DNA from: Owenia fusiformis
Taxonomy: Eukaryota; Annelida; Polychaeta; Sabellida; Oweniidae
Length of the DNA stretch: 64,000 bases
Reading direction: 5' to 3'
Assembly: GCA_903813345.2 (NCBI GenBank)
Contig: CAIIXF020000001.1
Span: 58,049,885-58,113,884 of the forward strand
The notes beneath the pieces are model-generated. The model was not told the origin of the DNA. It saw only the letters and a program-made list of their open reading frames with translations, and did no database searches. Position numbers and translations under genes: made by a program. Shown here in pieces: positions 915 through 44,816 of this stretch. Each line of letters opens with the position of its first letter. Positions within the stretch are counted from its first letter, which is position 1.

Positions 915-1214
915 CTTCAAACAATGAAGCAACTGATGATTTAGAAGCAGCGCTATCAACCTTCCTTTCCTCTTTAACCTCTTCCTTCACATCTTCCTCT
1001 TGAGCTACCTCTTCCTTTTCAACCTCAACCACTTTTGTACTTTCTTTCTTCTCCACTTTCTTCTTCTGTTTCCTTGAGGGTGGTGGCTTTTCTCGACTTG
1101 CAGGTGTTTTTGTTTTACTGCGTAGGGTTTTCTTGGTAGGGGGAGGGGTTGCAACCAGAGCTGGCTCAGGGACAGACTCGAGAGCGGGAGATGGGGCATT
1201 CTTTGAGAATCCAA
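915..1214 (-). CDS. Exon 15 of RP1-like gene: Pro-rich then Lys/Glu-rich low-complexity tail
   Basis: A 300-nt exon entered at TTTTAG|TTGG, where two bases complete the Phe codon begun in exon 14, and left at GAAG|GTGAGG in phase 1. It encodes a Pro-rich stretch (SPALESVPEPAL, PPPTKK), a strongly basic KQKKKVEKK block and an acidic EEVAQEEDVKEEVKEERK block. This is likely disordered or a charged single helix. Vertebrate RP1L1 also has a long acidic, low-complexity C-terminal region, but specific homology cannot be claimed. No later exon is supported in 1-914. Confidence 0.75.
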
Positions 1215-4200
1215 CTAAAATGTTAAAACAGCAAACAGAATATAGATATACTGTTGTTTTGAAAGCCAAACATACATGCAGTGTAATTACTCAGTGGTAA
1301 TGTGATGACTATTATAGATGGAATTATTAATATTTATCAATCTATGTATTAACGTAGATGAATTGTAGTTTTATTGTTGAATGTCATATCTATTTAAACA
1401 CTGTTATTATTGACCTTTAAAGTCCAGTGTCTCATAAGCCGACATCGGCTGGTGGTTTTTAGAATATGTATTTATTTGTACCAAATGTAAACCAGTGACA
1501 CTATAATAAACTATTTTAATAAATAATAAATAAATAAACTATTAATTTATTAACCTGTATTTAAACAGATTAGTACAAAACATAAAATATACAGTTATGG
1601 TGGTTCAAAACATATTTACAGTTTAGTGACACCTTGTTAAACATAAGAGATCAGGTGCACCTATAATGCATGTGTTTCACTAGTACATGTATGTTAATTG
1701 CCAGTATATTAGCTGATGAGCTTTGATCTTTTGATATACTATACATTGCATGGACAATTTTCGAAATACAAGCCATGTCTGAATAAGTGACATTGCCATT
1801 AGAGTTAAATACGATATTCTTATTGTCCGTCTCGCCGATGTCACTGTACTTGTCTAATAGTTTCGCTAATTTGATGTATTCATCAAATGAAACATGAAAA
1901 TAAAAAATGATCCAGGGTTTCAATCTCAGTCACAAAGAAGGCAGATTATTTGAAACACAACTATTATTCGAACTTATGATCGGACATAAGTATGATGTTA
2001 CTTTTACTTAATTACCATGAAGTACACATCATATTTATGTCCGATCATACATTCCAATAAAAAAGTTTTGTTTCAAATATTAATTGTATGACATATACGA
2101 GACCAATGCTAATACTACCAGGGTAATTTGACCTGCAGGCCTTACTATTTATACATATTTTTTTCTGTTTTGAAGAATTCAATATATGATGTACATTTTT
2201 CAGTTTTTCAAAGAAATCTACAAATATTACGTTGCGGTTTATCTTTACATCGTAATTTCAATCACCACCCTCACTTTTGAAACGAGTTACTTTGAAATAT
2301 CAAAACGTCATGCTATTCTCATACTTGTAAAACCTAATGTGACTGCCGTTCACAATTTACTAATAACCAGTAATAAAATGGATGACAAAATGCTTCTAGT
2401 TTCCCGTTGAATGTTGAGTCTCGCATCATACAAATGTAATTTTAGGCGATCTGTCTGCATGGGGTGTTATTAGAATTAGAAATCTTTTTGAACAAAGCAC
2501 AGTCTGACTGAAATTAATAAGGACCAGACCTTTTTCAAAATTACAGGTCAGTATGTCTGGCAAGCATTTTTTCCCTAAAGATGCCCAGACACACTAACAG
2601 ACATTTGGACAAACTGATAGTCAAACAGCTTCTGTATATCCCTAATAGGAATTTTGGTGGGATTATAAACATATCCATAAATAAGTATTACTTTGGTTTG
2701 AATTGACCCTTTTCCATATAAATGGAAAAATAGATGGCATCATGAGTGTTGGTAGGGCTAAAATACATGGCAGCCTATAGCAAGAGTCACTTAATTTCTT
2801 GATTTAACAAGTAATTTCATTTGAATCAACTTAAAACACCATTGGAATCTAACTATATGATCTTATTGACTTGTGGATTGTGATTTTACATGAGAATTGT
2901 TATGAACTTTTAAAAGTTTTTCAACATTGTGTCAATGGGGATTTAGCCCGACCTTTTATAGAAAACTCGAAAATATTTAGAATTTGAATAAAGGTTAATA
3001 ACTGTACAAATCAAAGTTGTTTTGATAGAAAATTACATACAGAATTCAAATATGCCATCAAATAGAAGAAAATGTTAGTCTATTATGGGGATCTTCTAAA
3101 ATCTCATTAAAACGAGATTTAAAACCTATGTCAAAAAGAGTCTACTGAAAAACAAACACATACAATATGTTTGTTTGATGTTCATGGTAACCTATATTAA
3201 TAATAAGCATCTTGAATGATTTCAGCTACCAGTTTGTATTTTAGATACTACTCATATATTAGGTCATGATGAACTTTGAACAAACAACTTCTATTTACAC
3301 ACAGCTTGTGCTTATCAAATGCAGTTGTGAACGAGAGTCATATAAACATTTAATGTTGAATATTGAAGCAGGACTGTGCAATATCAATATCATTTACAAT
3401 ATTATTACTAAAGAACAGAAAACACATTTGCCAATACACTAAATATATATAATATAAACACAGCATGTGTTGAATATGTAGAAGGAGTACATGTCTGTAA
3501 GAATTGGACCTATACTTAGTATCTGTTACGTGCTAGATTACCTTCATGATGAAAAACATGGCAAGACAAAAACCTACCATAAAGATGGCAGCAGTGTGCC
3601 TATTGGGTTTGATTCTTATAATAGCATGGATGTTACGTGGGCCAAATCAGAATCAAATATTGAAATCCAAATTAGATGTTTTCATAAATCATAAAATAAA
3701 CAAGAAGAAAATAAACAGCAAAGGGGAGTATCTGCCGTTCTATGGATACACTATAATTGCAAAATGTAGAGAGAATCAAGGATTGGAAAAACTTAAAGAT
3801 TTCATCCAGACATCATCATTGAGAATGTATTTTTCACCGTTACCTGTATCTTCATATCATATGACCATTTATGATGTTTGGTCAGTATCAAAACGCCCTG
3901 TTATTGCACCTGTTCAAAAATGGATGGACGAACATGGCATCACCAAAATCGACAATTCTAAACTTCTACCACCAGATGCAATGCGAGAAACGCTACAACG
4001 TGCTCAGAAATTAGCCCAAGAGATGCTACCAAAGTCAATAAAGGTCAGGCCCAAGATGGATCCTTATGGAAGACCAATACGCATACTTGAGAGCATGCTC
4101 GTTGAAATAATGGAAGAAAAAGATCAGAAAATGGTAGATAAATTTCGTGATACGTGTTCAGAGATTTTTGGCCATAAAGATGAGCGTTTAATTGGTAGAC

Positions 4201-7200
4201 TTCACATTACTTTAGTCTATCAGTATAGAAAAGTTCCTCCACAAGAAATAGATGCCATAAGCAATGATTTACAGAAACTTGAGGATCTTGCAATGAAACT
4301 CTTCCCTATTGAACTGGATCAAGGTGACCTTGTCACATTCAATGATATGACAGAGTTTACAACATATAGACTTTAGACACATTCCGAAACAAGACAAACA
4401 GAAGACTTAATAAGTAAACAAATACATTACAATATATTAGAAATACAGAATAGCAAATCCAACAATTTCCCTTTTATTAAGTGACAAATACGTATTCCTG
4501 TTATATATAATAGATATCTGAGGTAGGCGGGAGATATATATATCACCCGCTCAACAATTCCCAGTAATTTCGTTTTATAGATGTGGAATTTTAAAAAACG
4601 ATAAATGTTAAGAACTTTACATTGAGATTTAAGATATTCATGTTTTGATTGTAGTTTGTAAATAGAGGTTATTTAATGGGAGGGATGGAATATGAATTCT
4701 ATTCCGAGGGAAAATAGTGTCAATATGATATTTTCCGAGGCCAATATCATTTTCTCAAGGAAAAAATTCATATTCCATCACGACCATCAAAAACCTATTT
4801 ATTTTATAATAATTTTCTAAAACTTATTTATTTCTAATTTTTGTATGTCATCATAAAGGACATTGATTACCACAAACTCATCAACAACTATTTATTTTAT
4901 TATTATTTCACTATAGATTGAACCAGATAGAAAAGTAAATTTCAGATGCATTTTGTCAACAAACACCGGTACCTGCTTCATGTGATACAGTAGCTGTACA
5001 ATGTTATAGCACATGTAAAACTAACAATACAGCAAAGCTAACTTTCTTTCAATTATGTTGTATTCATTTTCTAATCATTTGAATGATGAAAATTGCAGTT
5101 ACTGTTTTTTTTGTAAATGTTGACAATTAATACTTGTATATCTCTGGGGCTTTGTAAACTAATTCAATAAATAATACAAATAACAATCATTTTGAACTTT
5201 TCATGATCAAAATAACGAGGCAGTTGAAGTGTCTCTCTAGGCAAATAAAACAACCCATGGCCACTGTACTCACACCACAGTATACTGTAGAAGGATATAT
5301 GAACCTGTTATAACCTCCAATGTAACTATGTTTCAATGGAAATAGTATTCAAATTAAATCTTCAGTTCAATACTTACAGTGAAGCACTTCTGGGTACAGC
5401 CGGACATTGTTCGCTCCAGTGTCTACTGTTGGGCGTACACTGCCATCTGGTGTCATCCCTACAAAGAGCCCCCTATTGGAGATTGATTCTAGCGTGACGT
5501 AGCCCTTTTCCTTGTAGCGTTCAACTTTAAACTGGCAAGACTCATCTCCAGAACCCTGAAGTGAAAATTAATAAATCACGCTTTGACAAATTGATGAAGA
5601 TATAAATGTATTTGTTTCTACTTTGCCTCTAATTTTATATACTTTTACCTCAATATCCCCCTCCAAGTCTAACAACTTACCTGGCAGTCACATTGTCCAT
5701 CTTTCATTCTCAAGAACTTATTAGGTGACACAAGACTCTCAAACATGCGGATGTTTCCCTCAGAGACTTTGTGGACTTTGAAGTGTGCTGTGCGGTTACG
5801 CTTTCCTGTGGCATAAAGGTTATCTTCATGATCCACAACCAGAGTCTGGTACAGAGATGTACAGAACATCAGAATGCCTTCCGCTCTAAACATACCCTAG
5901 GAAAATCAATGAAGATAATAAACAAACATCTTTTGGTTAAAGCTAGATTTCCGATTACAAATCTAAATCAAAAAAAAAAAATTTTTGAAAGTATTGAATC
6001 AAGATCCATCTAGTAATATATTACATCAATGAAATGGATGTTAACCAACAAAATCAATTCAATTTCCAGTTCACCCTCCTCGCCAGCAGTTCACCCCCTC
6101 TTTTCTGACAAAACTTCAAGTATCTGTTACTCAAATCATAACAAACACAAAACTAACAAGGCATTAACATGGAAAATGTCACCACCAGCCATTGACAGAT
6201 GCTGAACACCAAATGATGAATGCTGAACACCAACCGCCAAACACAGGCCACAAAAAAGTTTGAGACTATAACAATATGCCAAAAATCTCCCTTTCATAGG
6301 TAAAGGTAAAACTAATGAAATATATGGATAATTTCTTAATTTGATTTCTACTCTACCTTGCAATATGCATAGAACTGCCTATTCACAGTTGGACTAGTTG
6401 TATTACTGCGGCAATCCCCAGCTTGACCAGTGGGGAGGATGGTCATCTGTTGTAATGGATATTTCACAGATTCAAGTAAAATGCTTCTATCTTGCTGTAC
6501 TCTTATACGGAAGTCACAATAAGCACTCCCCCTCCCCTAAAATGCAGAAAAATGAAATGTGTGGTTAAGATATGAAATGATTTAGAACTTATAATCAGAA
6601 AAATATGATCTCTGGTTATATACCAAAAAATTATGAAACAAAAAGATACATAGAATATTCTTTGCACATCTTTAACATGTTATTTCTAATTGCATGACCT
6701 TATCTATTTTTACTTTGGCTCATGTCCACCATAAGTCAAACCAGAACAGGAGATGTACTTTTTTGCCCTGCCTACCCCTATACCACCACATGTAATCATT
6801 CATATAGACATTCAACGCACAACCACAATATGAAGAGTCATGCAATATAACCATGCATGTAACAAACACATGTGTTGAGTTAGAGTCTTTCATTTCCTTA
6901 CATGTGTTCAAATATTGACCACCAGGTGGTGATTTATAATGGACAATTTCACTGAGGAACTTTTTTTGATTTGTGAGCAGTCAATATCCTAGATGCGATC
7001 ACAATTCATATAACTGGTGTCATATTTGGAATATACATCTAAAATTACATCTAAAAATGTGGTTTTGAAAAGAGTATATCAACTTTGAAAATTTAATTTT
7101 CTTTGAAAATGTGACTTCTAGGTCGGGGAGATTCCCCATAGACCCCATGTTGTAAAACCACAAAAAGTGAAATATCTTTTCTTGTGTTGGGCAGATAATC

Positions 7201-10200
7201 TTTTCTTTTACTGGACATATTTTAATATGTATAACTATCACATACAAAAGGGTAATATGAAAAGTGAACCACTAAAACTGATGCATATTCCAGTTTAAGG
7301 GAATTTTGTAATACCCTGCCATGTTATTTCCCCCAAATCAGCCAACTGGTGGCGAAAATTGGTAACTACTTACTCGCATCTGAGTAATTATGATTTGGTT
7401 TGATTAAGACCACAAGCATTCATAAATACATTTGCTATTCAACTTCACAGATTCTAAATGCTTCATGACCACACTGACCAATTCTCCCAAGGTGCATTTT
7501 ACCAAGAACAAATAGATTTCTGAAAGGGAGCATTAAATATTTGTTGAAAATTGGTTGATATAAACCTCATAATTGCTTGAAATAAATCTGTTTGAAACAT
7601 AATCTCATAAATGGTAAAATACATCTCACAATTGTTTGAAATACATCTCAGAGTGGATAAAATATATGTAATAATTGGTGAAATACATCTTAATTTCTCA
7701 ATACATGTAGAGTGAATATCCTACCTTCTTACCCTTCAATACAGGGTAACTCTTGCAATGAAAATCAAATTGAAAGTACATGAATAAATATAAAGATTAG
7801 CATAAAATAATAATAAAGCAATAAAATCAAAGTGCATAAACTGAACTTACATAATATAAAGAGATAACAGGGTGAATGGACAAACAGTATACAATAGTAA
7901 TCTAGAAACTTCATATCTTACTTTGTATTAAGTGGTTTCTTAAGGAGGAGGTTTTCTTTGGTTGCTTTTACCAAAATTACAAGTGTTTTGAGCAATTTTG
8001 AAACAGTTTCCTTTTTTGAAATTATAACTTCAAATAAGGTCTGGTTTTTTCATTCATCTTTAGAAAATGTGATGATCAAATGCATTGATGTATACAGTTG
8101 TCCATGTATGTTTTATGTTCTACTGTGTCTTTTTAATCAGTTATAGGACATAAAAATAAATGAATAGATCACATAAATGTATTGAAATCTTTAATCCCTC
8201 TCACCTGTGTTCCAAGCTTTGCATTATCTATTGCAATCCAAAAGCGTGGATTGGCCACACTGTTGAACACTCGCACCATGCCACGCCTTGTAACAACTCT
8301 CAATACACCTAGAATGCAATTAACATAATAATGCCCAATCAAAGGAAAATCAAGGAATAATGATCTTAAACTGCATTAACTCATTTTTGCATTTCAACTC
8401 AAGAGCCAGGTTAAGTCTGAAAGACGTGTTCATGACTGTGTTTGATTACCTTCATGATCGCTCAAGTCCCCCTCCCCATCTACAGTACCATCTGCACGAA
8501 CCCTAAGTGCTCTTTCTGTGCTCTTGGAGAACAACATCACATGACGATCAGATTCAAACTTCCACTTCTCAAGCTCCCACTGGAAATATATCACAGTCAT
8601 TTATTTTCTCTTCACAATTAGAGCAGAGTCAATATAAAGGTCACACTTTAATTAACAAGATTTAAAATGTCACAACCTGTAATGGACACAAATAGTATAG
8701 TAATATATCACAATTAGATGGTGAGTAAATGGTATTTTTTGGCATGATGAAATATATTTAGTTACAATAAGACTGCAAAGTGAATGTATTCAATCAAACA
8801 TGAGGAGATTCAGGACATACACTCAAACATGGGTGGACATACACTCAAACATGAGTGTATTGACTCAAATGTCAGTGGGTTCACTCAAACATGAGCATAT
8901 TCACTCAGGCATGAGTGCATTTATTCTCACACAAATGCATTCACTCTTACATTCTCAATGATCTATCTGGACTCCCTACAAAAGCCACCACATGCTAAAC
9001 ACATACCAATTGTTGCTCAACAAGGTCCTGCTGAAACTCCTCCTGGACCTTAATCTCACGTACGATCTTGTTATCATCCTCCCCTGCATCTAACCACCTG
9101 AAACATTAAATATAATTGGTCTATTTGTTATCACATGACAGAAAACTACAATCTTATTATCATCCTCCCGTGCATACTACAACCTAAAACATTAAATATA
9201 ATTGGTCAATTTGTGATCACATGACAGAAAACTACAATCTTATTATCATCCTCCCCAGCATACTACCACCTGATATAGTCAACATTGTATTACTATTTGA
9301 CTCCTGATTGGTCAAAGGATGGTCACATGGAAGTTACTGCCAGTTTACCAGACTATTACAAACATAGATGTACATGTAAAGTTTATAACAGGTGAGATCC
9401 TCACTGACATTGTCAGTCATAGATAAAATCAACATACTTCCCATAAAATGATCCAACTAGCACAGAGCATGGTTTACTACAATATGGTAAATAAATATCT
9501 TACTTGCTGCAAGGGAAAGTGTAGTCTGTGTAGGCTCTTGGAGACTCCTTGACAACAACACGATCCAAGAACCATCCATCCCCTTCATCGGTTGCATCAT
9601 GACCAACGATAATCTTCTTCAGACGACCCAGGGACACTGCCTCAATGTTAAATTTATCAACCTTCAAATACAATGTAAACTGTGTTTAAGGGACTGTATC
9701 TCAATCTAAAATACAATGTAAACTATATACTTAAAATATTTAATGTAAACTTTTAGTTTGAATCTAAACCTTAATACAATGTAAACTGTGTTTAAGAGAC
9801 TGAATCTCAATCTAAAATACAATGTAAACTATATACTTAAAATATTTAATGTAAACTTTTAGTTTGAATCTAAACCTTAATACAATGTAAACTGTGTTTA
9901 AGAGACTGAATCTCAATCTAAAATACAATGTAAACTATATGCTTAAAATACTTAATGTAAACTGAATGTGAATCTAAACACTTGAATGTACAACTACTTG
10001 ATGTAAACTGCATTCTGTATATCAATCTTAATGAAACTCAAAATTTAATGTAAACTGTGTTTTATAGTCTGAACATTCCCTGTTTTCCAATCTGAGAATA
10101 GGGATTTGGGTATCATGTTTGTAACCAATACAATGATTTCTAATTCAATGAGTTCAAGGATTTACATTGCTCAAAGTCCATGATGGATTGGACCATGGGC

Positions 10201-13200
10201 TTAAAGCCCATGATTGGACTTAAGTATTTATATCTAATTCATATTTTTCTCTTAACCTTGATTGATCAAAGTGTGTCATAAAATAAATTGATAGATATCA
10301 AGATAACATAATAGTTGATGTTGATTTAATTCATGACATTAAAGTCAATTTGTACTTTAGCATTAGCATATAAATGGATACATCAAATGCTCTTAATGTG
10401 TATCTCTTCTGAATAAATACAACAAAAATGTACTTTTTATAATATTATTTCAATCTATTTTGCTATATTTTATGTTTTTATTATCCCTTTCTGACATGCC
10501 CTTCATTAATGACAACATACAACATAATATAACCACCACCAAATGTTCATGTTCATGCCAATAAGGGAGGATGCAAAGCTTATCAAGGGAGTACGATTTA
10601 TAAGTAGAATATCATTATTTGTTTCATATTTCTGATATTTATAATTTCTGATTCAAATTCAGGGCTTGTAAAGCCATGGGGTCTCTCTTGAAAGCCCATG
10701 CTAAAGCTAACAAACACTGATGAGTAAGACCAAGAATTGGCAGATACTGTGATTTGAGGAAAGAGAAAGATTCATAATTTTTGTGCATTCTGTGCTGTCA
10801 TTGAATGCTATTTCTTGGAGATCTGTTTTGAATTTAAGTCGTACAACCATTACCATACATGCAGTTTTAATACTAGCTACTACTACTTTTAGAAGTGAGT
10901 ATTTGAAGCTGATTGGCTCTGCCACATGTAAGACAACACTTAAGATTCATGGTCATCATAATGATTAATATCATGATTAATAATGATTAATATCATGATT
11001 AATAATGATTAATATCATGATTAATAATGATTAATATCATGATTAATATCAAATCTCCAAATTGGACAAAATACACCAACATTTCATGACTTCAATTTCT
11101 CAATTTTCAAATACATATGTACTTGAGTTGCAGCGCCCCCTGTTGATTCAATACTTGAGATCACTTAAACTTCATAAAGTCAATCAAAATATTTTTAACA
11201 TTTACTCCATATAAAGCCAAACAAGATTGGTCATGAATACATTGATCAATTATTGTATAGTTATTGTATGATTTAGGTAAGAATAAATAAGAATTAGGAG
11301 GAAACAGACACATATCAGGATACATGCAACACATAAAATACAGGCATAAGACAAAATACAGTATACTTCTGAAATATATAAATAATAATTCATGCCTTGA
11401 CATATCTAAATATCAGGTTTTCATTTCATCACTGAATGTTAAATGGTAAAAGATCATTCAAAGGAAATTTAAATTGTGCTTTAACTTATAGTTCAGAAAA
11501 TGAGAGATGAAATATATCTTGAGTTCTTATGCCTGCATTTAATAACCTTTATCCCTGTTACCTGATTCTTTTTGAAGATTTCCACCTATTGATCACACAA
11601 AAAACATTAAGCTACAGGTATGTGCACAAATATTAGTATGTAAAAAAGTCAAACATGATAACAGCACATATTAGCAAAGCAAAAAGGATTCAATAAATAC
11701 ATGTATGACTGGCTTGTTTGTTGTACTAAAAGATGCAACTGGCAACGACTGTGCATTTAAATAGCAAACATTTAAATATATCAATACATGAGTCATGCCT
11801 ATTAAGACTCATTTCTCTATCATAATTATAATATTTAAATGAAACATACTTTTCTTGCATATTTATACAATTTAGAATCACCACTCAAATCCATGTTGGA
11901 TTTCTGATACATGTAAAAGATTTTCATACCTTGTGAAAAAAATCACAAAATGGAACAAAAGTATAACTCTAATCTTGGTTACTATATTCTTTATTAAGTT
12001 GCAGTTTTCTCCCCTCTCATATGGGTCATAAAACATTAATGTCATGACATCATATCATGTTGACACCATATTGTTATGACAATATGATGTCATGATGATC
12101 TTCATGAGAACATGTTTAGCACATTGTTAACAAAAATACAAAAATAGCGCACAATCATTATCAATGTAACACCAAATCAATAACAAGAATTACAATCACA
12201 ACCAAACAATGAAAAATGTGAATATTTCATAAAGCAATGTATGTGAACCTACCTGAGCTTTGTCAAATTTTGGTTTTCGTTTTGGGTTGAATAATTGTCG
12301 CACGCCTGTGTCACCACGTTCTCCATATATGGTTATGTAGACATTCGCCATCGTGCCACCATTCCAGACATCCCCAGTGTGGACAGTCACTTCATATTTG
12401 TGGACTGAAATACATTCATAACTCTATAACAATATATTTAATAATTTTCTGCATTTTCATAGGAACTTTCAAAAATATAGATCATTACTGCTTGTTTTAT
12501 CTTTATTCCTAATTTACAAATTGGTTTCAAGGGAATAATTCAAATATAAATCAGTGCTCATGCAGAATCAGAGAAGTGATCTTATGAGTAATTCATGAAT
12601 ATACCAACATATTAGATAACTGTATTATTCTTAAAATTTTACTAACATTACATTTTGTTGATTGTTTTCTTATAACAATATATTATTTATTATTTCATTA
12701 AGTTTTATTTTCAAGTTATATCAACATATTAGGTAACCATGGTTACAATAAAAATTTCCTTTTTTATTGATGATTGCTTTCCAATATCAACAAGTTCATT
12801 AAATTTTATTTTCCTTTAATTTCTAAAAGTGATTCGTACAAAGGAAGACTTTACTAATCACATGTGAGTGCCGACATAACAAAAAATAACAAAAAGTCCT
12901 TAAATTCACTATTACAAGACAGGAAACACTCACTTGGCAGGACAGGTTCCCCTTCTCTAACTGCTGGCAGTTCCCGACAAATCTCAGAGTCGTCTTCGTC
13001 TCGTGACAGCCAGCGACGACAGGTGAAGATTAACTCTTCTTCTGTGTGCATGTCTCGCAACTTCACCTACAGAGGAACACAAATTCTGTGTATTATTCAT
13101 CCATCTACCATAACACATGTTTGATAATTAATAAATGCATTAAATTCCAAATTTCATAGTATTTTGCTTATTTTGAATTGACTAATTTACATATTTTACT

Positions 13201-16200
13201 TTTCCAGTGATATCAGTGGTAAGGTTATTTATTAAAGTGTTATAATGCTGTACCAACCACCCAACACCTTCCCCAAAAAGTTGGAGACTATAACAATATG
13301 GAAATGGAGTGGAAAATCAATTAAAAAATACCTCATCGAGGAACCACCCTGGAAACTCCCCTTTGTTGTCATGAGCCACACGAATCTTATATATTTCTCC
13401 TATGTTACCTATGGACACCTGAAAACAAATCTTTTAATTAGTGTTCGTAGTTGAGACATGTAATGGGCATTTTTGGAGGGAGTAGGAGAAAGTCATTGTA
13501 AACTGACTAATAGCAAAACATGATATTTACCTTTATTAAGGAAACAAAAAATTTCATGGGCCACCGTTGTTTAGTGATAAATATGGTGCCATAAATATCA
13601 TATATAGCAATATGAAGCTGGATTACAATTTAATGTTTATTAGGTGTAAATATCATATTGTCTCATGTCACCTCAAATATGTTTAAACACATAATCGTAT
13701 TTGGGAAGTCCCATGTGAGAGCCAGATGGTACCCAAAGTTGCTTTTGAAATATCACTCCCATGACATGCAATGACAATATCAAAGACCAGATGTCAACTC
13801 ATCACATTATATCTTAAAATCTTATTACGTTATGGAAGTCACTCCACAACATGCGTGCAAATAAATGTGATGACAACACCAATGGAATATGTTCTACTAA
13901 GCCAGGAATTTCCTAAATATTCTACATCTTGTAATTAAGCTAATGAATTTCAACAAACAAATCATATTGCATTTCCAAAATAAACACAGGGCTATACATC
14001 CCCAGCTGTTTGATGACACTGGTTTAGGAGGAGATATCATGATAAAACTTGATTTTTGATATACACCATGCCAAACGACAAAAACAAATACACAATACCA
14101 ATTATCCATCAAAAAATGCACTACCTTTATAACAGAGAACAAAAAAAAGTAGAACAGAATTAATAAGGGTATAATTATGCATATATACTTGAATATAGTA
14201 TGTATTAGTTCTTTATTACCAGCTCACCTCACAACAATTCAGGCTCATTAGTGCACAAATGATGTGCCAAGGATGTATTAATATTATTCTTTGACAGAAT
14301 TGATATTATTCAATGATGAGTACACTAGTCTTTTTATTGTTGTATTTTGATGTGTCAATGCTTTTTATTGTTGTATTTTGATGTGTCAATGCTTTTTATT
14401 GTTGTATCTTGATGTGTCAATGTTCTTTCATTTCCTAAGATTAAGGACAAATCTTCATATAATATACAGGGTGTCAACCTTAAAGGAGGCTGCTTATGTA
14501 GTGAACACTCTGTACATTCAAAGAAATACATCTTTTAACAATAGTCGCAGGTTCTATATTCAAAGGACAGTTTTTGCTCAGATCACAATTTAAAAATGTG
14601 TGTCAATATTAACAAAGTATGTCACATAATGTAGACATATGTAGTAAAAAAACTGATAAAAAATTTAGATTCGGTCATAAAATCATGAAATGTATAGAAC
14701 AGAAAATAACCTATTTTATATAATGTAAGTTCATGTAGTAATGAATACTTAATGTAATACGTTGCGAAAACATGATTAACAAGAGCACCTCATTCCAATA
14801 CATTCGCAACACATGGTTACAATTGACTATGGGAATGCATATTATCAGAAGCTATCAGGAAATGGAAAAATGGAAAAAGTTACTGTTTTGAAACTGCATC
14901 ACAGAAAACATACATATGTGGGTTTATACTGGTGGAATGATATATACATCAAATCACGAGATGTGAGTAAATTATTTCTGAATTCACAATAAATCTGGGC
15001 TGAAACGAGCAAGTATTGATCAAATTGATGTTTGTTTTGCATCCTGTTTGCAATGGACCATCAACATACAAATAAAACAAATCCAGACATATACTGAATG
15101 AATCAGAGCAAAAGGATTATTTAGGTAAAACGAAACAATTCCCAAAATCTTTGACTCAAAGTGGTTTCTTCTAAGAACTGATGAGTAGTAACTGTTTGTT
15201 CAAATCCCCTAATGAATATCCACAATACATATACATTACAATTCAATACATTAACAGTAAACACAATACAATAAATTAGTTTGAAACATAAATACATGGT
15301 GAGATATATGTAGGGATATTATGATCAAAGAAAAGACTCCAAGAAAACATTTAAAGGTATTAATGCATAAAAGCAGTCTGAACAATAGGATAGTTTCTAA
15401 ATAGCAGAAAAATCAATGAAATCTCGTGGTGCCATCTTTTATTCAGCTTTTAACTCTGGCTAGAGCTCCATTCACTTACATGCTAAAATCTTGGAAAAGT
15501 GGCTTAATTTCATGATTTATCAAAGTGTGTTTGTTGAATCTGTATAAAACTTGAATGATATACCACATGATGACCCTGTTTATGAACATGTTGTGATTAA
15601 ACATGCTAATGTTGATTGACATACAAATAATCCACGGTTTTAAAGAATTTTAGCATTGCATCTATGGACATTTGGCCCAACTTTTTTTAAATTGTCATAG
15701 AAAATTATTCAAATTACATAACTGTGTAAATCAAAGCTATTTTAGGAGAAAACATTCCACTGAATTCAAATATACCATTTAAAAGAAGGTAATGTAAGTC
15801 ATTAGAGGTCTAATATGCAAGTCTCTTAAAATCTCACGAAAAACGAGATTTAGCGAGATTTCAAAAGCTATATGGAAACTATACTAATTAGAAGAGGACT
15901 TAAGAAATAACACATAAACACAGTTATAACGTTATAGATTCATTTCAGAGATTATTTTTATTCAAACTCGATACTTCGTTGCCCTGCATGGACCAATTTG
16001 GTAATAATTATACTCATATTTTGAAGACTATAACTGCCAATAAATCTTGAATATTCCCATAATATTTGTAATATATATCTTCTAGCTTGGTGAAAAGAGA
16101 ATTTTATAGAAATATTTTTACTAAATTGTTTACGCCGGGCAACGGAGTATCAAGTTTGAATAATGGCTGCCAATCCTCCTTGCGACAGGAATATAAATAA

Positions 16201-30397: not shown

Positions 30398-30879
30398 TAT
30401 CAACCAAAAAACAATAAGTGGTACCAACCAGGAAACCAAATTGTATGTACCATACCAGGTCGTTCAATAAGTTCACGGAAAAACGCTCTCATTTCAAGGA
30501 TTTTTGATATTTTCTCATGAAATTTTCACACAATGTATAAAAAATACTTTCTGATTGATTGTTAAAATCTCAGCATCTCTAATTAGATTGGTCAAAAATA
30601 AGGGTTACTATGGTAACTTGACTTTTTGGTAGGCGGGGCACGTTTTACGTCACACAATTTACCATTACAGAAATCTATCAATATGTGCAAAGGAAGGATC
30701 CTTATTTTTTATTTGTTCTTATTCAAATTACAAATTTTTGAGGGAAAATTGATGTTAATGGTTTTCACGAACATTTTTGAAATTGTGCTAGTTAATGCTG
30801 TACCAGTGGACCAGAAAATCAACAAAGTAATGGTATGGTAAGTTGATTAAAACTTCCATTCAGCCGAACTCTAAATCTT

Positions 30880-31185: not shown

Positions 31186-31274
31186 AACCTTATGGGACAA
31201 TAGTTGTTACTATAACTACATTAAGTAATATCATGTACAAGTAGAAAGCGGAGAAGAAATTCATGTGATATATA

Positions 31275-31463
31275 TAGGTTATTTACTGGGAGGGATTGAA
31301 TATGGGTTTTATTCCGAGGGACAATATGATATTGACCGAAGGGTAATATGATATTGACCGAGGGAGCGCAGCGACCGAGTGTCAATATCATATTTCCCAA
31401 GGTCAATATCATATTTTCCGAGGAATAAAACCCATATTCAATACCGACCAGAAATAACCTATT
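31275..31463. repeat. Foldback element (copy 2 of the AGGTTATTTA family) inside the mariner
   Basis: Left arm ATAGGTTATTTACTGGGAGG then GAATATGGGTTTTATTCC, with its complement on the right. The core repeats ATGATATTGACCGAGGG and holds a GGAGCGCAGCGACC spacer. Same family as 4662-4803. Next to it (31555-31690) a block with CAATACGATTTTTGTCCCGG is tandemly repeated. Confidence 0.7.
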
Positions 31464-31971
31464 TATTCCATAATGCACTCCTCCTTAAAATGTTACATTT
31501 GGATAATGCTTTTATCAATTAGTCAAGGTTAAGAATAACCGGGAAAACCAAAAATAGGTTAATATGTTCCAATACGATTTTTGTCCCGGGGACAATACGA
31601 TTTTTCCATGTAATACGCTCCAATACGATTTTTTTCCCGGGGACAATACGATTTTTTCATGTAATACGATTCAATACGATTTTTATTCCTTCATATTTCC
31701 CTGGGAAAACAGTAGTATTATGGAATAAACTCATAAATTGCCTACTATTCTGTTGTTTTTCTAATGAATAATGTGACGTAAAAAGTGCCCCGCCTACCCA
31801 AAAGTCAAGTTACCATAGTAACCCTTATTTTTGACCAATCAAATAAGAGATGCTGATATTTTCAGAATCAATCAGAAAGTATTTTTTATACATTGTGTGA
31901 AAATTTCAAGAGAAAATATCAAAAATCCTTATAATGAGAGCATTTTTCCGTGAACTTATTGAACGACCTGG

Positions 31972-34425: not shown

Positions 34426-37400
34426 ATGGCGACAATAACAACAAATGATGTCCAAATTATCGGTTCTTTAAATGTAAGATAGGAGTCAATAGGAGTACCA
34501 ATATATGTCAAAAACAGTATCATAGTATTGTTCAGTATATTTTTCCTCAAATTAGAAGAATGACATTGACCAATACATCCAAGTCTTTTTATTTTCAGGT
34601 TCATTTTACAAAATAAAATCTTCTGTTTTCATTCAATTTTTCTGTAGGCCTAGATTAGCTGAGGCTAAGTTTGGTTGGCTTTGATATTATCATGTGTTCA
34701 ATATACATTTATAAACATGATAAACTCACATGTGCAATACATGTACAACAGTATCATATCCCAGGATTTATAATGTAGATCTTCTTGTTTTACAGCGAGA
34801 TGAAGGACATAAGAGACTTGCAACTTGTCTGGGTTGGAAGGCTTTTGACGAGGACTTTGACTTACGCAGCTCAATATTACTCGACTATCTCTATGACAAC
34901 TTGATGTTTGCTATAGCCAAAGGATTCCCATGGTCTCAAGTTCTTCATGTTTTGCATCTTGTACTGGATGTACATAATGACTCTATAGGTAAGCTTACAT
35001 GTACATGTAAAGCTAGTGTATTCATTCAGGAGCATTGGATGGGTCATAGCCCCCTCCCATGACTAAAAGCAAGAAGATAGTTGATTGTAAACCATTATAT
35101 TTGACTTAGAAACTGAACAAACCATCACAGTCATTTTAAAATGTAAAACCTTTCAAGGGGATCTAGCCATACCCCATATTGATCTACATTAGCATAAGAT
35201 CCATCCAAAGCCACTCCCACTCCCTATCCCCCACAAACCAGTGACAGCCCTGTTTATTTGTTGTATAAAAATATATATTTCCCATGACAGTGAATTGATT
35301 GTTAGGCCTATAGAATTTAGCTCAATAAAAATAAGATAGCTACATGTATTTTACAAATGATGCAATTATGTCAACTAAAATTGATTTTCAGGTAAAGAAC
35401 TTGTAGATGTGATCAAATGCTATACGTCAAAAGCTGCACAATTCTCTGACAGGATTAGTGAAAATAACATAAAAATATTTACAACAAACTATTTCTCAAC
35501 ATATTTGACCCACTATAAACTTTACAAATATGTGTTCAGTGTTGAACAAGAACGGAACTTTTACAGCTATGACTTACAAGTCGATGTTCCCATTCCTCCA
35601 TTACCTTTAAAAGACTCAAAAGAGCACAATATCTGGGAATATGAGAAAAAGATAGCTGACATTGAAGCAGTGGAAGAAAAAACTAAAGCAGAGAGAGGAT
35701 TAGACTTTGAAAATACCATTACTGAAGACCATGAACTACTTAGTAAGACATTTAAAGAAGGCTGTGTTCCAGGTGATGAGGAAGAAAATGCTGTCAAAAT
35801 TTCACGAGAGGTATATATCATTGTTGTGTAATTAAAAACATATGAAGAAGTAGTATAGTAGGAACAAGGGGTTCCCATGCACCCATAAGGTGTGAATAAG
35901 TTACATACATTTTTGTAATCCCTAGGGTGTCTATTTAATGAATCCATTTGTTAACATTGCCAACTAATGTCCCATAGTACTTTTATGGTGGCATTCAGTT
36001 ACCATGGTTACGCATCTTTAGACATCTTACCTTGGTATCTTAAATCATTTGTAGGTCTGTCATTATTTGGTCTATAGAGTAAATTATCCTAACTTGAGTA
36101 AAAATGTGTGGTAAGTAAATTCGCTATGGGCAGTTAAAGAGGCGCCATCTATTCATTTTCAAACAGGGGGTAGGGGTATAAAATAATTTTTAACACATTT
36201 TAATAGTAAAATGACATTGAAATACTAATAAAATCTTATCAAAAACATTATTTACAATCAGTATGAATTTTCTTGTGTGGATTAGGGTGAAAATAAGGGC
36301 ATAACTTGAAATTTACTACAGGGGCGCCACCTATTTTCATACTTCTACCACGTGTAATAACTTATTTTAGATTCGTTAGGGTACGAAATGTACTGAAAAA
36401 ATTCATTTTGAAGGACCTATATATGTTCATACCACATACTAAAAATTGGATCAATAGCTTTTGTACTGGCGGAGAAAAAAATTATTGAAATTTAAAATTG
36501 TGGCATCATGCAGGATAGGGGTGACCATATCTCACATGATTAACTTCCAAAATATGGAGCATTTGTATCTCAAATATGCTCAAAATGGTGTATGTACTCT
36601 TGCTTTGTCATAATATTACTAATAAGAAGTAGAAAAATGATTGTACATTTTAAAAAATATTAATTCTCATTTTGGCTTCTGACGTCTCAGGGGTGACCAT
36701 ATCTCACCTTAATAACTTCCAAAATATGGAGCATATGTATCTCAAATGAACTCAAAATGGTGAATTTACTCTTGCTTTGTCATAATATTACTAATAAGAA
36801 GTAGAAAAATGATTGTACATTTTAAAAAATATTGATTCTCATTCTGGCTTCTGACGTCCCAGGGGTGACGATATCTCACCTTAATAACTTCCAAAATATG
36901 GAGCATATGTATCTCAAATGTACTCAAAATGGTGTATGTACTCTTGATTTGTCATAAAAGTACTAATGAGAAGTAGAAAAATGATTGTACATTTTAAAAA
37001 ATATTGATTCTCATTTTGGCTTCTGACGTCCCAGGGGTGACCATATCTCACCTTAATAACTTCCAAAATATGGAGCATATGTATCTCAAATGTGCTCAAA
37101 AAGGTGTATGTACTCTTGCTTTGTCATAATATTACTAATAAGAAGTAAAAAATGATTGTACATTTAAAATAATATGAATTCTCATTTTGGCTTCTGACGT
37201 CCCAGGGGTGACCATATCTCACTTTAATAACTTCCAAAATATGGAGCATTTGTATTTCAAATGTACTCAAAAAGGTGTATGTACTCTTGATTTGTCATAA
37301 TATTACTAATAAGAAGTAGAAAAATAATTATACATTTCAAAAATTTTAATTTTAGCTTCTTATGTTCCAGGGTAATCATATTGCACCATAAAATAATAAT

Positions 37401-40400
37401 AACTTCTAAGATACTCTAAGATACATGTATGTAACATATAATCCTCAAATATTCTCAGAAAAGTCCTGTCCTTTTCATATTACTTAAATGAAATGTAGAA
37501 AAATGATTGCATTTTTTTTAATTTTAATTTTAGCCTCTGGTGTCCTAAGGGCTATCTCACCTTGATAACTCTCATGATATGCATCTCAAATGTGTGCTCA
37601 AAATGGTATAAATATAGTCTTGTTTTGTCATATTCATTGAGAATCATAAAATCAACAGTTCAGAATCAATGGATTTTGACTGTCTCCTCTACAGCTACAT
37701 ATAATTCAGGGTAAATAATATCTGCTTTCAAATATTTGCATCTGCTCCCCAAACACCCTTTACAGGTACAATGGATGAGATTATTCCCTTGCATACATTG
37801 GACCCAACGTCTTTTGTAATCCATACAGGAATCCTTTTAGCCTGTCAATAGTGGGAGTACTTCCATTTATGAAGTAATGGCAACTGTTGGTAAGGTGTTA
37901 ATATGTTATCCTGTGGCCTGCAATATATGCACCTTGGATTATACACTGAATTAAGGGATTTTGAGTATGTAAAATACAGGGAAAAGGAGCTCTTTGTAAT
38001 GATAAATCTTTCTAGCCACATTAACATTCTCTAGTTTGCATGTTTGTCATACAACATACATTGATTGTAATGAAATATTTATCTATGATTGTGATGTCCC
38101 ACACTTCTAGGGTCCCAAAGAAGAGCTTAGCTTTTGGAACAATTGCATTATTCTTAGATTTGGGGTTAAGGGGCCAATTTTGGTAAATGAGGCTACTCAC
38201 ACTACTGATAGGCTACCAGTATACAAAAGATGTTGCATCCAAGGCATGCAAAAGACTTATCGTCCATTGTTCCAAGGAGTGTTTGGGGAGAAGATGCAAA
38301 TATTTGAAAGTAGATCTTAATGTCTCTGAATTATATGTAGCTGCAGCCTGCAGGGGAGACAGTCAAATCCATAAATTCTGAACTTCTGATTTCATGAATC
38401 TCAATAAATATGACAAAACAAGACTATATTCATACCATTTTGAGCACACATTTGAGATGCATATGTTGCATATATGAGAGAGAGTTATATCAAAGTGAGA
38501 TATAATTACCCCTGAGATGTCAGATTCGGAAGCTAAAATGAAAATTTCAATTAAAAAAAGGTGTAATAATTTTTTTACATCTCATGAATAGTATTATGAC
38601 AAGGCAAGACTATACGCCCCATTTTTGGTATATTTGAGTTGTATATGTTACATAATTTTAAAAGTTATTGAGGGAAGTCAGAAGCTAAAATTAAAATTTT
38701 TTAAATGTATAATCATTTTCCTACTTCTTATTAGTAATATTATGACAAAGCAAGAGTACATACACCATTTTGAGTACATTTGAGATACATATGCTCCATA
38801 TTTTGGAAGTTATTAAGGTGAGATATGGTCACCCCTGGAATGTCATAAGCCAAAATGAGAATTAATATTTTTTAAAATGTACAATCATTTTTCTACTTCT
38901 TATTAGTAATATTATGACAAAGCAAGAGTACATACACCATTTTGAGCATATTTGAGATACAAATGCTCCATATTTTGGAAGTTATTAAGGTGAGATATGG
39001 TCACCCCTGGAATGTCAGAAGCCAAATATGAGAATTAATATTTTTTTAAATGTACAATCATTTTTTTACTTCTTTTTAGTATTATTATGACAAAGCAAGA
39101 GTACATACACAATTTTGAGCACATTTGAGATACAAATGCTCCATATTTTGGAAGTTATTAAGGTGAGATATGGTCACCCCTGGGACGTCTGAAGCCAAAA
39201 TGAGAATTAATATTTTTTTAAATTGTACAATCATTTTTCTACTTCTTATTAGTAATATTATGACAAAGCAAGAGTACATACACCATTTTGAGTACATTTG
39301 AGATACATATGCTCCATATTTTGGAAGTTAATCATGTGAGATATGGTCACCCCTATCCTGCATGATGCCAAATTTTTAAATTACAAGAATTTTTTTCTCC
39401 CCCGGTACAAAAGCTATTGATCCAATTTTAAGTATATGGTATGAACATATATAGGTCCTTTAGATTGATTTTTTTCAGTACATTTTGTACCTTAACGAAT
39501 CTAAAATAAGTTATTACACGTGGTAGAAGTATGAAAATAGGTGGCGCCCCTGTAGTGATTTTCAAAATATGCCCTTATTTTCACCCTAATCCGCACAAGA
39601 AAATTCATACTGATTGTAAATAATGTTTTTGATGAGATTTTATTAGTATTTCAATGTCATTTTACTATCAAAATGTGATAAAAATTATTTTATACCCCTA
39701 CCCCCTATTTGAAAATGAATAGATGGCGCCTCTCTAACTGCCCATAGCGAATTCACTTACCACACATTTTTACTCAAGATAGAATAATTTACTCTAGCGA
39801 GTGTCTAGAACAAAATGATACCCTCAAACCTTTTTTACTAGCCGATCACCGAAATCAGACCTGGGGACAGCACTATAGTAGAAGGTATAAGCAACATAAA
39901 AGTGAAAACAGATTCAAAATTGAATCAGTATTATGAAAGTTATGTAACTTTCGAGGCAGCTATCGTGAATGTCATTATTTGACAATAATATACATACGTC
40001 TTACCTTGGAGTCTTGAATCAATGTAGCTTCGCCATTATTTGGTCTATAGAGATAATATTGGTATCTGATTAAACCTTATTAAATTTACTATATGGTTAC
40101 AATATTCAGTTATGCAAATTAGCTAATTTGCATTAATTGTGACGTCATCAATCCATTTTTGCTTCAGAATATCCTAGTAAAGCAACATATCTATTAGAAC
40201 TGAGGCCGTATGACAGAATGTGTGCATAGTTTTGTCCCTTATTTGATGAGTGGAAGATATAAGCAACATTAAAGAGACAACAAATCTTCAAAATTGGATC
40301 AGAATTAACAAAATTATCCAGCTTTGGAGGCAGCTACTGTGAACGCCATTGTTTGACAATTATAAAAAGAATATTAAATTAACAAAAAAAGTAACAACCA

Positions 40401-43400
40401 TAGTTGTTTCAATCTTATTAAGTAAAAATGTGCATGTATTGGACTGAACTAATAAGTATGTGGAAAGGTTACATGCATTTTGACTATCATTCACAGGGGT
40501 CAAAACAGTTATCTCGACCCTGTATATTAAAGATCCAATCTTATAATTTACCATGCACTTTCAATGATTCATATAAATAGTATACATATAGTCTGCTTTT
40601 CATCATATTCTTCATATTCTTGATTCTTAAAGCATCTGAAGCATATATAGCATGATTAGAAGTGAAGATCATCATATGGTTTATGTAATATTTCTAACAT
40701 TTCAGATGCTATGGTAACATCACTTGATAATGAGGTTTTTACATTTCACGTTCTAAATGAGTTAAAAGGAAGTTATTCTCCCTTTGCTTTAGAGATAAAT
40801 AGTTGCATGAATTTGTTTAGAAAAATTATAACTTAATTAATTTAACCCCCCCCCCCTGACAGCCCCATATTTGAAGATTTTGGTGAAACCTGGCAAAATA
40901 CATTAATTATTAGGTTCCAGAAGCCCCCAGAAGCTATATGATGGCCCCCAGTGGCCCCAAGAATCTATACAGGGGCCCCAAGTGGCCCCCAGAAGCTATA
41001 CTGTGCTCCCCAGAAGCTATATGTTGGCCCCCAGAAGCTGAATAGTGGCCCCAGGGAGCTATACGGTGGCTCCCAGAAGCTATACAGGAAACCCTGTGGC
41101 CCCTAGGAGCTATACGGTGGCGCCCAGAAGCTATACAGGGGCCCCCAGTGGCCCCGAAAAGCTATACGGTGGCCCCCAGAAGCTATACGGGGGCCCCCAG
41201 AAGCTATACGATGGCCCCCAGAAGCTATACAAGGGCCCCCAGAAACTATACTATGGTCTCCAGAAGCTATATGGTGGCCCCCAGTGGCCCTCGGAAGCTA
41301 TATGATGGCCTCCAGAAGCTATACAGGGGCCCCCAGGAGCTATATGGTGGCTCCCAGAAGCTATACAGGGGACCCCAGTGGCCCCAAGAAGCTAAACGAA
41401 GGCCCCCAGAAGCTATACAGGAGCCCCGAAAAGCTACATGATGGCCCCCAGAATCTATATGATGGCCCCCAATGGCTCCCAGAAGATGTGAAGGGCCCCC
41501 AGTAGCCCCTAGAAGCTATACGGTGACCCCCAGTGGCCCTCATAGGCTATATGATGGCCCTAAGAAGCTAAATAGTGACCCTCAGGAGCTATATGGTGGT
41601 TCCCAGAAGCTACACAATGGCTCCAAGAAGCTATAAAGGGCCCCCCAGTAGCCCCTAGAAGCTATACGGTGGCCCCCAGTGGCCCCGAAAGCTATATAGT
41701 GGCCCCAAGAAGCTATACGATGGCCCCCAGAAGCTATGCAAGGGCCTGCAGAAACTGTACTGTAGCCCCCAGAAGCTATACAGGGGCCCCCAGTGGCTCC
41801 CAGAAGCTATATGATGGCCCCCAGAAGCTATGCAAGGGCCTGCAGAAACTATACTGTAGCCCCCAGAAGCTATACAGGGGCCCCCAGTGGCTCCCAGAAG
41901 CTATACGATGGCCCCCAGAAGCTATGCAAGGGCCCGCAGAAACTATACGGTAGCCCCCATAAGCTATACGATGGCCTCCAGAAGCTATACAGTGTCCCCC
42001 AATGGGCCACCATATAGCTTTGGGGGCCACCGTATAGCTTCTAGGGGCTACTGTGGGCCCTGTATAGCTTCTGGGAGCCATTTGGGGCCATCATATAGAT
42101 TCTGGGGGCCATCTTGTAGCTTCTGGGGGCTGCTGTATAGCTTCTGGGGGCCATCGTATAGCTTCTTGGGGCCACTGGGGTTCCCTGTATAGCTTCTGGG
42201 TGCCACCGTATAGCTCCTGGGGGCCACTAATTAGCTTCTGGGGGCCATCATATAGCTTCTGAGGGCCACTGGGGGTCACCATATAGCTTCTGGAGACCAC
42301 AGTGTAGTTTCTGTGGGCCCTTGTATAGCTTCTGGGGGCCATCGTATACCTTCTGGGGGCCACTTGGGGCCCCTATATAGATTCTTGGGGCCACTGGGGG
42401 CCATCATATAGCTTCTGGAACCTAATTATTAATGTATTTTGCCAGGTTTCACCAAAATCTTCAAATATGGGGGCTGTCAGGAGGGGGTTAAATTAAGTTA
42501 TAATTTTTTTAAACAAATTCATGTGATTATTTATCTCTAAAGCAAAGGGAGAATAACATTCTTTTAACTCATTAAGAACGTGAAATGTAAAAACCTCATT
42601 ATCAAGTGATGTTACCATAGCATCTGAAATGTTAGAAATATTACATAAACCATATGAAGAATCATCTTCACTTCTAATCATGCTTTATACCTCAGATGCT
42701 TTAAGAATCAAGAATATGAAGAATATGATGAAAAGCAGACTATATGTATACTATTTATATGAATCATTGAAAGTGCATGGTAAATTATAAAAATTGAATC
42801 TTTAATATACAGGGTCGAGATAACCGTTTTGGCCCCTGTGAATGATAGTCAAAATGCATGTAACCTTTCCACATACTTATTAGTTCAATACATGCACATT
42901 TTTACTCAATAAGATTGAAACAACTATGGTTGTTACTTTTTTTGTTGATTTAATATTCTTTTTATAATTGTCAAACAATGACGTTCACAGTAGCTGCCTC
43001 CAAAGCTGGATAATTTTGTTAATTCTGATCCTATTTTGAAGATTTGTTGTCTCTTTAATGTTGCTTATATCTTCCACTCATCAAATAAGGGACAAAACAA
43101 TGCACACATTCTGTCATACGGCCTCAGTTCTAATAGATATGTTGCTTTACTAGGATATTCTGAAGCAAAAATGGATTGATGACGTCACAATCAATGCAAA
43201 TTAGCTAATTTGCATAACTGAATATTGTAACCATATAGTAAATTTAATAAGGTTTAATCAGATACCAATATCATCTCTGTAGACCAAATAATGGCGAAGC
43301 TACATTGATTCAAGACTCCAAGGTAAGACGTATGTATATTATTGTCAAATAATGACATTCACGATAGCTGCCTCGAAAGTTACATAACTTTCGTAATACT

Positions 43401-44816
43401 GATTCAATTTTGAATCTGTTTTCATTTTTATGTTGCTTATAGCTTCTACTAATAGAATAAAGGACAAAACCTTTCAGAAATGTTGCCATACGGACTCAGT
43501 TTTAATAGATACGTTGCTATAGTTGGAAATTCTGAACCAAAAATAGATTGATGACGTCATAATTTATGCAAAGTAGATAATTTGCATTATTGAATATCAG
43601 AAATTTATTGGAAATTTAACGAGGTTCAATTTGGTACCAATATCATTTCTATAGACCAAATAATGACAGAGCTACAAATGATTTAAGATACCAAGGTAAG
43701 ATGTCTAAAGATGCGTAACCATGGTAACTGAATGCCGCCATAAAAGTACTATGGGACATTAGTTGGCAATGTTAACAAATGAATTCATTAAATAGACACC
43801 CTAGGGATTACAAAAATGTATGTAACTTATTCACACCTTATGGGTGCATGGGAACCCCTTGTTCCTACTATACTAAAGTAATATGTGATTGATATATAAA
43901 TGTAAATATTGTAAATTAATGCATGATTGATACAATAATTATAAATAGGTAAAACTGTGCTAGTAGTACAGCAGTACATGTACATATAACAAATAAGTGT
44001 TGGAGTTGATTTCGGCTTCAAGTAATTTTTAGAGTTATCAATAGTTGAGTTTTTACAGTATAAGGAAATATAAGAATTATGTCTTCTTTTTCCATTATTC
44101 CATATTTGTTAAGTTATGCATTCTGTTCCATAGGTCCAGCATAATGTAGCTGTCAAACGTTTCAACCATTAAAATGTGTATTTGTCTAGGCAATAGTGAA
44201 GCTTATCGCAGATGCAGCTAAGGCACATGCAACAGCCGCAACACACTCCATTGTGGCAAACATAGAAAGTGTGCTTGAAGACCTGGAGTTCAAGTTAGAG
44301 AAAACAAGTCTTCCAAGGCCTCAAGCATTAGGTATAACCTGTTTTACATATAAATCTTAGTGAAGTTTTGGATGATGACTGTCAGTGTCAGATGCCATCT
44401 ATAAATTATGCAGTAAATTATAAATGATTTATAGCCTCCCCTGACAACCAAGTTTTCTTGCAGATTAGAGAAGGCCTTGTAAGTCTGTCAGACTCTGTCG
44501 AGGACAAAACAATATATCTCGATTTTTTACTTTAAATTTAGCTATTGAAATTTCAGTTTTTTGGCCCCCCCCCCAATTTTACTGCAATGGGAAGCCCATC
44601 AAAACACTTGAAAAAAAGGTTGACATTTGTGATAACCTACATGTACTCATCCTTATTGCTGTGATATAAATGCTAAATGTTCTAATTGTAGGACCACCCC
44701 CAAGGTTCCGGGGTAAGACTCCTCTTTCTAGGGCAAAGCAAGGAGGAAAGTCACCCTCGAGAGAGAAATCACCAAAGAGAAAAGGCTCAGGCAGATCCAC
44801 TAAAAGCAAATCATAA
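34426..44816 (+). CDS. C8orf74: C8orf74 homologue, five exons, complete
   Basis: Exons 34426-34473, 34796-34988, 35392-35810, 44190-44331 and 44692-44816 join in consistent phase with GT-AG introns to 927 nt, 308 residues. The start AAAATGG has a good context. Key blocks: KRLATCLGWKAFDEDFDLRS, SILLDYLYDNLMFAIAKGFP, YFSTYLTHYKLYKYVFSVEQ, a Glu/Lys helical stretch, VKLIADAAKAHATAATHS, and a basic C-terminus with SPSREKSPKRK repeats. From memory these match human C8orf74 in order, including ILLD-LY-FA-GKGFPW and the HYKLY-YV block; the human protein is of similar length (about 294). The family is of unknown function, reported mainly from testis; I infer a sperm or cilium role. Intron 4 (8.4 kb) is almost entirely a transposable element, but the splice sites are intact. 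Confidence 0.8.
36077..39794. mobile_element. Nested foldback element B built from 172-bp tandem repeats
   Basis: Ends are inverted: GAGTAAATTATCCTAACTTG at 36077 and its near-complement ending at 39794, with TA on both sides. Each arm carries a GCGCC-containing segment and then a tandem array. In the left arm, units starting GGGGTGACCATATCTCACC lie at 36518, 36690, 36862, 37034 and 37205 (spacing 171-172 bp), with decayed units to about 37640. The right arm (about 38430-39355) holds inverted copies. The two arms mirror to a centre near 38000. Confidence 0.85.
36518..37376. repeat. 172-bp satellite-like array, left arm of element B
   Basis: Five good units, each with TTCCAAAATATGGAGCAT, CTCTTGCTTTGTCATAATAT and TTGGCTTCTGACGTCCCAGG. 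The matching inverted array lies at about 38430-39355. Short open frames within it (36914-37099, 39085-39297) come from the repeat. Confidence 0.9.
40915..42425. repeat. 21-bp minisatellite at the heart of element A, inverted at ~42000
   Basis: Units of 21 bp such as AGAAGCTATACGGTGGCCCC run in one direction from 40915 to about 42000, then in the opposite direction to 42425. Because 21 is a multiple of three, all frames stay open for long stretches and encode heptads such as MAPRSYT or GPQKLYD. These frames (for example 41045-41305, 41669-41953, 42091-42363) are products of the repeat, not genes. Confidence 0.9.

Follow-up and report, generated by a model that had tools for sequence, protein, structure and literature searches.

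A divergent pair of doublecortin-domain and C8orf74-like genes in the annelid Owenia fusiformis, a probable counterpart of RP1L1-C8orf74 on human 8p23.1

Are two neighbouring genes of an annelid worm, transcribed away from each other, the same neighbours that adjoin on human 8p23.1? This question is raised by a 64-kb stretch of the Owenia fusiformis genome (hereafter the window; C1:58049885-58113884, on the 62.2-Mb chromosome C1 of a 498-Mb genome), in which a minus-strand gene beginning with two doublecortin (DCX) domains and a plus-strand gene resembling human C8orf74 stand as divergent neighbours. Anciently conserved microsyntenic gene pairs exist in metazoans, and conserved microsynteny is probably the explanation here, that is, a two-gene block made of C8orf74 and a tandem-DCX neighbour of the RP1/RP1L1 type would have been inherited from a distant ancestor shared with vertebrates. 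The order and orientation of the two genes, both gene models and the position of each gene as the best candidate in the genome are observed, and the RP1 type is the best label for the DCX gene, albeit an unproven one. Throughout, one annelid genome is compared with human gene order, and the human query sequences (C8orf74, RP1, RP1L1, DCX and others) as well as the human gene strands are working versions and not database records.

For the plus-strand gene a complete model was obtained: its five exons (34426-44816) have GT/AG at the splice sites and agree in phase. It codes for 308 residues and its stop codon, at 44816, coincides exactly with the upper limit given in the first-pass annotation of this DNA. 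The spliced protein contains a CLAMP domain (PF14769, residues 52-136, 30.5 bits against the curated Pfam cut-off of 22.7), a domain which we take human C8orf74 to carry as well. When human C8orf74 was searched against the 498-Mb genome, two matches were obtained at E<=10 (13 candidates scored), both of them to this gene, at its exons 2 and 3 (53.9 and 39.3 bits). The global alignment of the two proteins proved collinear over their full length, with a score of 311, and none of 500 shuffles scored above 41. Two solved structures are matched at E<0.001, namely CFAP119 of mouse (3.7e-5) and FAP114 of Chlamydomonas (2.9e-4); both are described as subunits of the C1a projection (PMC12297659, PMC9113940). 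A CFAP119-type sequence sits at a separate locus, on C12. The identification as C8orf74, first made from the letters of the window, is thus upheld by the sole-locus match, the full-length alignment, the CLAMP domain and the separate CFAP119 locus, and we take the plus-strand gene as the putative C8orf74 orthologue.

Both gene models also bear out the divergent arrangement. The start codons of the DCX gene (19855, minus strand) and of the C8orf74-like gene (34426, plus strand) have 14,570 bp between them, a distance that unseen 5' exons could shorten. In this gap, 29 open reading frames (ORFs) of at least 62 aa were judged by eye (no Pfam scan was run there) and none was recognised as a gene; over the whole window, Rfam and ARAGORN gave no RNA match. 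As for the human side, RP1L1 and C8orf74 presumably lie on divergent strands with no gene between them. Their adjacency, proposed at the first reading, is indicated by consecutive rows in the gene table of PMC8027303, which lists PRSS55, RP1L1, C8orf74, SOX7, PINX1 and XKR6 in that order, the table order being taken as map order. C8orf74 itself is given at chr8:10530146-10558103 in PMC6696953, where the build is not stated. In a literature search of titles and abstract starts, none of the titles listed dealt with this gene pair or with a DCX-PLAT fusion, and no paper with both "PLAT domain" and "doublecortin" was among the matches listed.

The identity of the minus-strand gene calls for a longer argument. 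Its two N-terminal DCX domains are encoded by two exons, from an ATG at 19855 (Pfam DCX, E 8.9e-25 on the first exon and 3e-26 on the spliced piece). Genome-wide, nine DCX matches fall in six loci. Besides the window gene, these comprise a DCX-like gene with 63% identity to human DCX, on C2, a DCLK locus (DCX with kinase), a locus of the DCX-EMAP type (C1:8989044-8999202, where a tandem-DCX frame is followed at 8.5 kb by a HELP motif read the same way), a DCDC2-like gene and, on C4, a weak single-domain piece; the other four loci outside the window can be assigned to families. Searching the genome with the DCX region of RP1L1 puts the window gene on top (49.8 + 22.5 bits), the C2 gene coming next (45 bits). 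With RP1 as query and both domains summed, the window gene reaches 93.4 bits (55.7 + 37.7) versus 74.8 for DCLK and 57.9 for the C2 gene. Moreover, in a tree of 162 columns and 10 sequences (five of them human, and one with DCX1 only; DCDC1 was left out), the best topology has the window gene beside RP1+RP1L1, and approximately unbiased (AU) tests reject its placement with the DCX group (0.032) or with DCLK (0.024), as well as that of DCLK with RP1 (0.040). Among the six DCX loci, the window gene is hence the best candidate for RP1/RP1L1, though not decisively so.

Several results weigh against this assignment and, with it, against an inherited pair. The single best match of the RP1 query is DCLK (60.1 bits), followed by the C2 gene (57.9 bits) and only then by the window gene. 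Ultrafast-bootstrap support for window+RP1+RP1L1 is just 73, and the AU tests do not reject window+DCDC2 (0.147), window+DCX-EMAP (0.258) or DCX-EMAP+RP1 (0.465). A match of the window DCX2 to the DCDC1 DCX2 model was also noted, a weak one (15.5 bits, cut-off 27.8). Regarding architecture, vertebrate RP1L1 is described as two doublecortin domains plus an RP1 domain (PMC7600334); in the window gene model, PLAT follows the DCX pair, and a simple motif pattern for the RP1 (BIF-like) domain matched once on the minus strand of the 204 kb joined around the window, in an unrelated ORF. An exon break within DCX2 lies at the same place as the RP1 exon 2 boundary at c.615+1 (PMC11878163). As a hallmark of RP1, this intron position had to be rejected: the break, between GKP and V, recurs in the DCX-like gene on C2, and the intron therefore does not single out RP1. 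In the same way, the 15 distinct solved chains listed as matches of the DCX exon are doublecortin or a kinase relative and therefore cannot separate RP1 from DCX. The RP1/RP1L1 group presented in PMC1550402 holds vertebrate sequences only. The label "RP1-like" of the first-pass annotation consequently stands in part: the gene is the best candidate by the RP1L1 query and by the tree, but support is weak and the architecture differs, and since the gene is DCX-PLAT the label covers its N-terminus only.

From these results, the DCX gene could instead represent a separate DCX-PLAT family or be nearer to DCDC1; the likeness of the pair to 8p23.1 would then reflect coincidence or a duplication that is not seen here. 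Such a view accommodates the 19 same-strand PLAT matches over ~59 kb, the surviving alternative placements in a tree from which DCDC1 was absent, the preference of the RP1 query for DCLK as single match, and the weak DCDC1 and FGF-like (beta-trefoil) matches. It is nevertheless unlikely, given that the RP1L1 query favours the window gene, that the RP1 query does so too once domains are summed, that all remaining DCX loci but one fit other families (the exception being the weak single-domain piece) and that the neighbour of this very DCX gene is C8orf74.

A chance adjacency, both identities being right and the genes having been joined independently here and in vertebrates, is quite unlikely. 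Admittedly, the pair alone is shared: within 70 kb on either side, ORFs of at least 88 aa inspected by eye, an approach by which short exons would be missed, revealed no other 8p23.1 gene, which weighs against inheritance of the pair, and the flank genes recognised in this way were CAD, a G protein-coupled receptor (GPCR), a sulfotransferase-like gene and SLC22/MFS-type transporters. Yet C8orf74 matches one place only and there are just six DCX loci, and the chance of finding any of six DCX genes as divergent neighbour of a given single-copy gene is ~1 in 10,000 (by hand, ~25,000 genes assumed), or ~1 in 1,000 if other noticeable pairs are allowed for (by hand). Finally, an identity of the plus-strand gene with CFAP119, or with some other gene carrying a CLAMP domain, is highly improbable, for although its two structural matches at E<0.001 are CFAP119 and FAP114 and the domain is common to them, the C12 locus already carries the CFAP119-type sequence and human C8orf74 matches the window gene only, along its full length.

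At the scale of the chromosome, SoxF, ATP6V1H, XKR, PINX1 and MSRA were taken as markers from the human RP1L1/RP1 neighbourhoods. SoxF, ATP6V1H and XKR (3/5) lie on C1, the hand-computed chance of at least three out of five being ~0.016 at 12.5% each; PINX1 lies on C6 and MSRA on C7/C3, which counts on the other side. Three markers on C1 with two elsewhere fits shared chromosome ancestry with local order mostly lost. SoxF next to the pair, as predicted from the 8p23.1 / 8q11 duplicates, was rejected, the candidate being 10.4 Mb away on C1, and this result too speaks against the conserved block. This best SoxF candidate matches in two pieces, at 81% and 74% identity, with 67.0 + 69.6 bits; scores of up to 116 bits are reached by one-exon Sox genes on C4, at 59-60% identity.

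If the two-gene block is ancestral, the vertebrate genome duplications would have turned it into RP1L1-C8orf74 on 8p23.1, and the RP1 copy, beside SOX17, may have lost its C8orf74. The DCX pair would bind axonemal microtubules and the PLAT array might tie the DCX protein to membrane or to partner proteins, while the C8orf74 product, with its CLAMP domain, would be a relative of CFAP119/FAP114, which belong to the ciliary C1a projection. The pair would most likely have persisted because regulatory DNA of one gene surrounds the other, or else passively. Were the pair ancestral, there would be independent support for naming invertebrate counterparts both of two genes of retinal disease and of a human gene that is uncharacterised, and C8orf74 would take its place among related proteins of the ciliary central apparatus.

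Shared regulation of the two genes, also put forward in the first reading of the window, did not gain support. With 14.6 kb between the starts, far from the ~1 kb within which start sites of a bidirectional promoter are sought, a shared core promoter is unlikely. An X-box (RFX-type) consensus is present near the DCX gene only, and none was found within 1.5 kb of the C8orf74-like start. Human RP1L1 has been called retina-specific (PMC3072926) and C8orf74 has been treated among testis candidate genes (PMC4278308); with the X-box one-sided, a common programme is therefore not shown. The window contains 13 X-box matches versus 1.7 expected, an excess largely due to transposon copies: of the 11 consensus matches across the joined 204 kb, 6 belong to copies of a single element with terminal inverted repeats (TIRs), and the matches at 30604 and 31809 have mirrored surroundings, whereas the X-box at 20252 is in neither setting. 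This repeated element has 228-bp TIRs that are 98-99% alike and occurs in three copies in the 204 kb (window 35851-43875; 61962-66354, crossing the window end; C1:58010998-58015392). Intron 3 of the C8orf74-like gene consists mostly of one copy, and another is located inside the stretch covered by the PLAT array; in the first copy there is, in addition, an inverted 172-bp tandem array.

That a gene of DCX-PLAT architecture stands next to C8orf74 is the more surprising part of this locus. Spliced together, the first five exons of the minus-strand gene yield a DCX-DCX-PLAT protein with one full PLAT domain (E 4.7e-21). Position 915, the lower limit given in the first-pass annotation, is not the gene end: an internal exon has its splice donor there (TTTGAAG followed by gtgagg), and the next PLAT frame, of compatible phase, is found ~1 kb past this exon, just outside the window. 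Indeed, same-strand PLAT matches reach C1:58008368, 41 kb past the window edge; this locus (C1:58008368-58067514) holds 19/72 of the PLAT matches of the genome, three of these 19 being inside the window. A second PLAT array, C6:29068760-29104675, has 22 matches and is without DCX match. Because only a short gap separates the DCX from the first PLAT exons, these probably belong to one gene; the rest of the PLAT array would continue this gene and not form a second one in tandem, with less certainty at the far end. One may then conceive, tentatively and with more doubt than confidence, that RP1 and RP1L1 descend from a giant DCX-multiPLAT protein which bridged axonemal microtubules and the ciliary membrane and whose gene formed a pair with C8orf74 from early bilaterians onwards; vertebrates would have kept the pair and dropped the PLAT array, RP1L1 being the stripped-down N-terminus of a LOXHD1-like protein. 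The DCX-PLAT architecture would thereby give an idea of a pre-photoreceptor role of the RP1 type, namely the tying of microtubules to membrane. The features of both genes are collected in Table 1.

Table 1. Features of the divergent gene pair, in window positions
Feature	Position	Strand	Basis or remark
DCX-PLAT exon: ATG, DCX1 and most of DCX2	19175-19855	-	Pfam, splice model
DCX-PLAT next exon, end of DCX2	17918-18122	-	splice model
DCX-PLAT first PLAT exon, 276 bp past the DCX exon	17478-17641	-	candidate acceptor, weak context
DCX-PLAT second part of PLAT 1	13332-13418	-	lower end counted by hand
DCX-PLAT end of PLAT 1	12934-13066	-	lower end counted by hand
Open frame, first part of PLAT 2	12199-12423	-	PLAT match
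Open frame, second part of PLAT 2	9503-9685	-	PLAT match
Open frame, weak FGF-like (beta-trefoil) piece	8433-8600	-	E 0.06, under family cut-off
Open frame, FGF-like (beta-trefoil) piece	5370-5567	-	E 5.1e-4, 20.5 bits, under family cut-off of 24
Internal lysine/glutamate-rich linker exon	915-1214	-	AG acceptor, GT donor phase 1; gene runs on beyond the window
X-box (RFX-type) consensus	20252-20265	+	exact match, 397 bp upstream of the DCX-gene ATG
C8orf74-like exon 1	34426-34473	+	ATG, GT donor, phase 0
C8orf74-like exon 2	34796-34988	+	human C8orf74 residues 12-78 match at 43%
C8orf74-like exon 3	35392-35810	+	second half of CLAMP domain; matched by human C8orf74
C8orf74-like exon 4	44190-44331	+	splice model; global alignment with human protein
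C8orf74-like exon 5 with stop codon	44692-44816	+	splice model

Other frames were observed in and around the window. A 2H-phosphodiesterase-like frame of 279 aa is found at 3537-4376 (plus strand; PF08975, 24.5 bits against a cut-off of 21), inside the limits of the DCX-PLAT gene but on the other strand. Past the C8orf74-like gene, two similar SLC22/MFS-type transporter genes were seen by eye in tandem (window 49678-54902, and 86689-93759 in the flank); their Pfam matches, from the one frame giving any, are just under the cut-offs. In the other flank, a GPCR-like single frame of 967 aa (C1:58000931-58003831, window -48953 to -46053) shows, by eye, a unit of ~20 residues repeated in a long tandem between its membrane segments.

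How does this pair compare with known systems? LOXHD1 has in common with the window gene a long PLAT array, though the C6 array fits a partial LOXHD1 query better (top 131 versus 94 bits). RP1 and RP1L1, tandem-DCX proteins of the photoreceptor axoneme, resemble the window gene by their N-terminal DCX pair and the DCX2 exon break and differ by the PLAT array that follows DCX in the worm and by the RP1 (BIF-like) motif, for which the simple pattern found no counterpart in it. CFAP119 and FAP114, as C1a central-apparatus subunits, have the CLAMP domain in common with the C8orf74-like protein, which diverges from them outside this domain, the CFAP119-type gene being the other locus on C12. In the human RP1L1-C8orf74 pair, presumably divergent, the genes adjoin as in Owenia according to the PMC8027303 table, whereas the human DCX partner is without a described PLAT array; beyond C8orf74 comes SOX7 in human and, by eye, SLC22/MFS-type transporters in the Owenia window. 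With the ancient microsyntenic pairs of the literature, the two genes finally share the feature of neighbours that keep their orientation over great distances.

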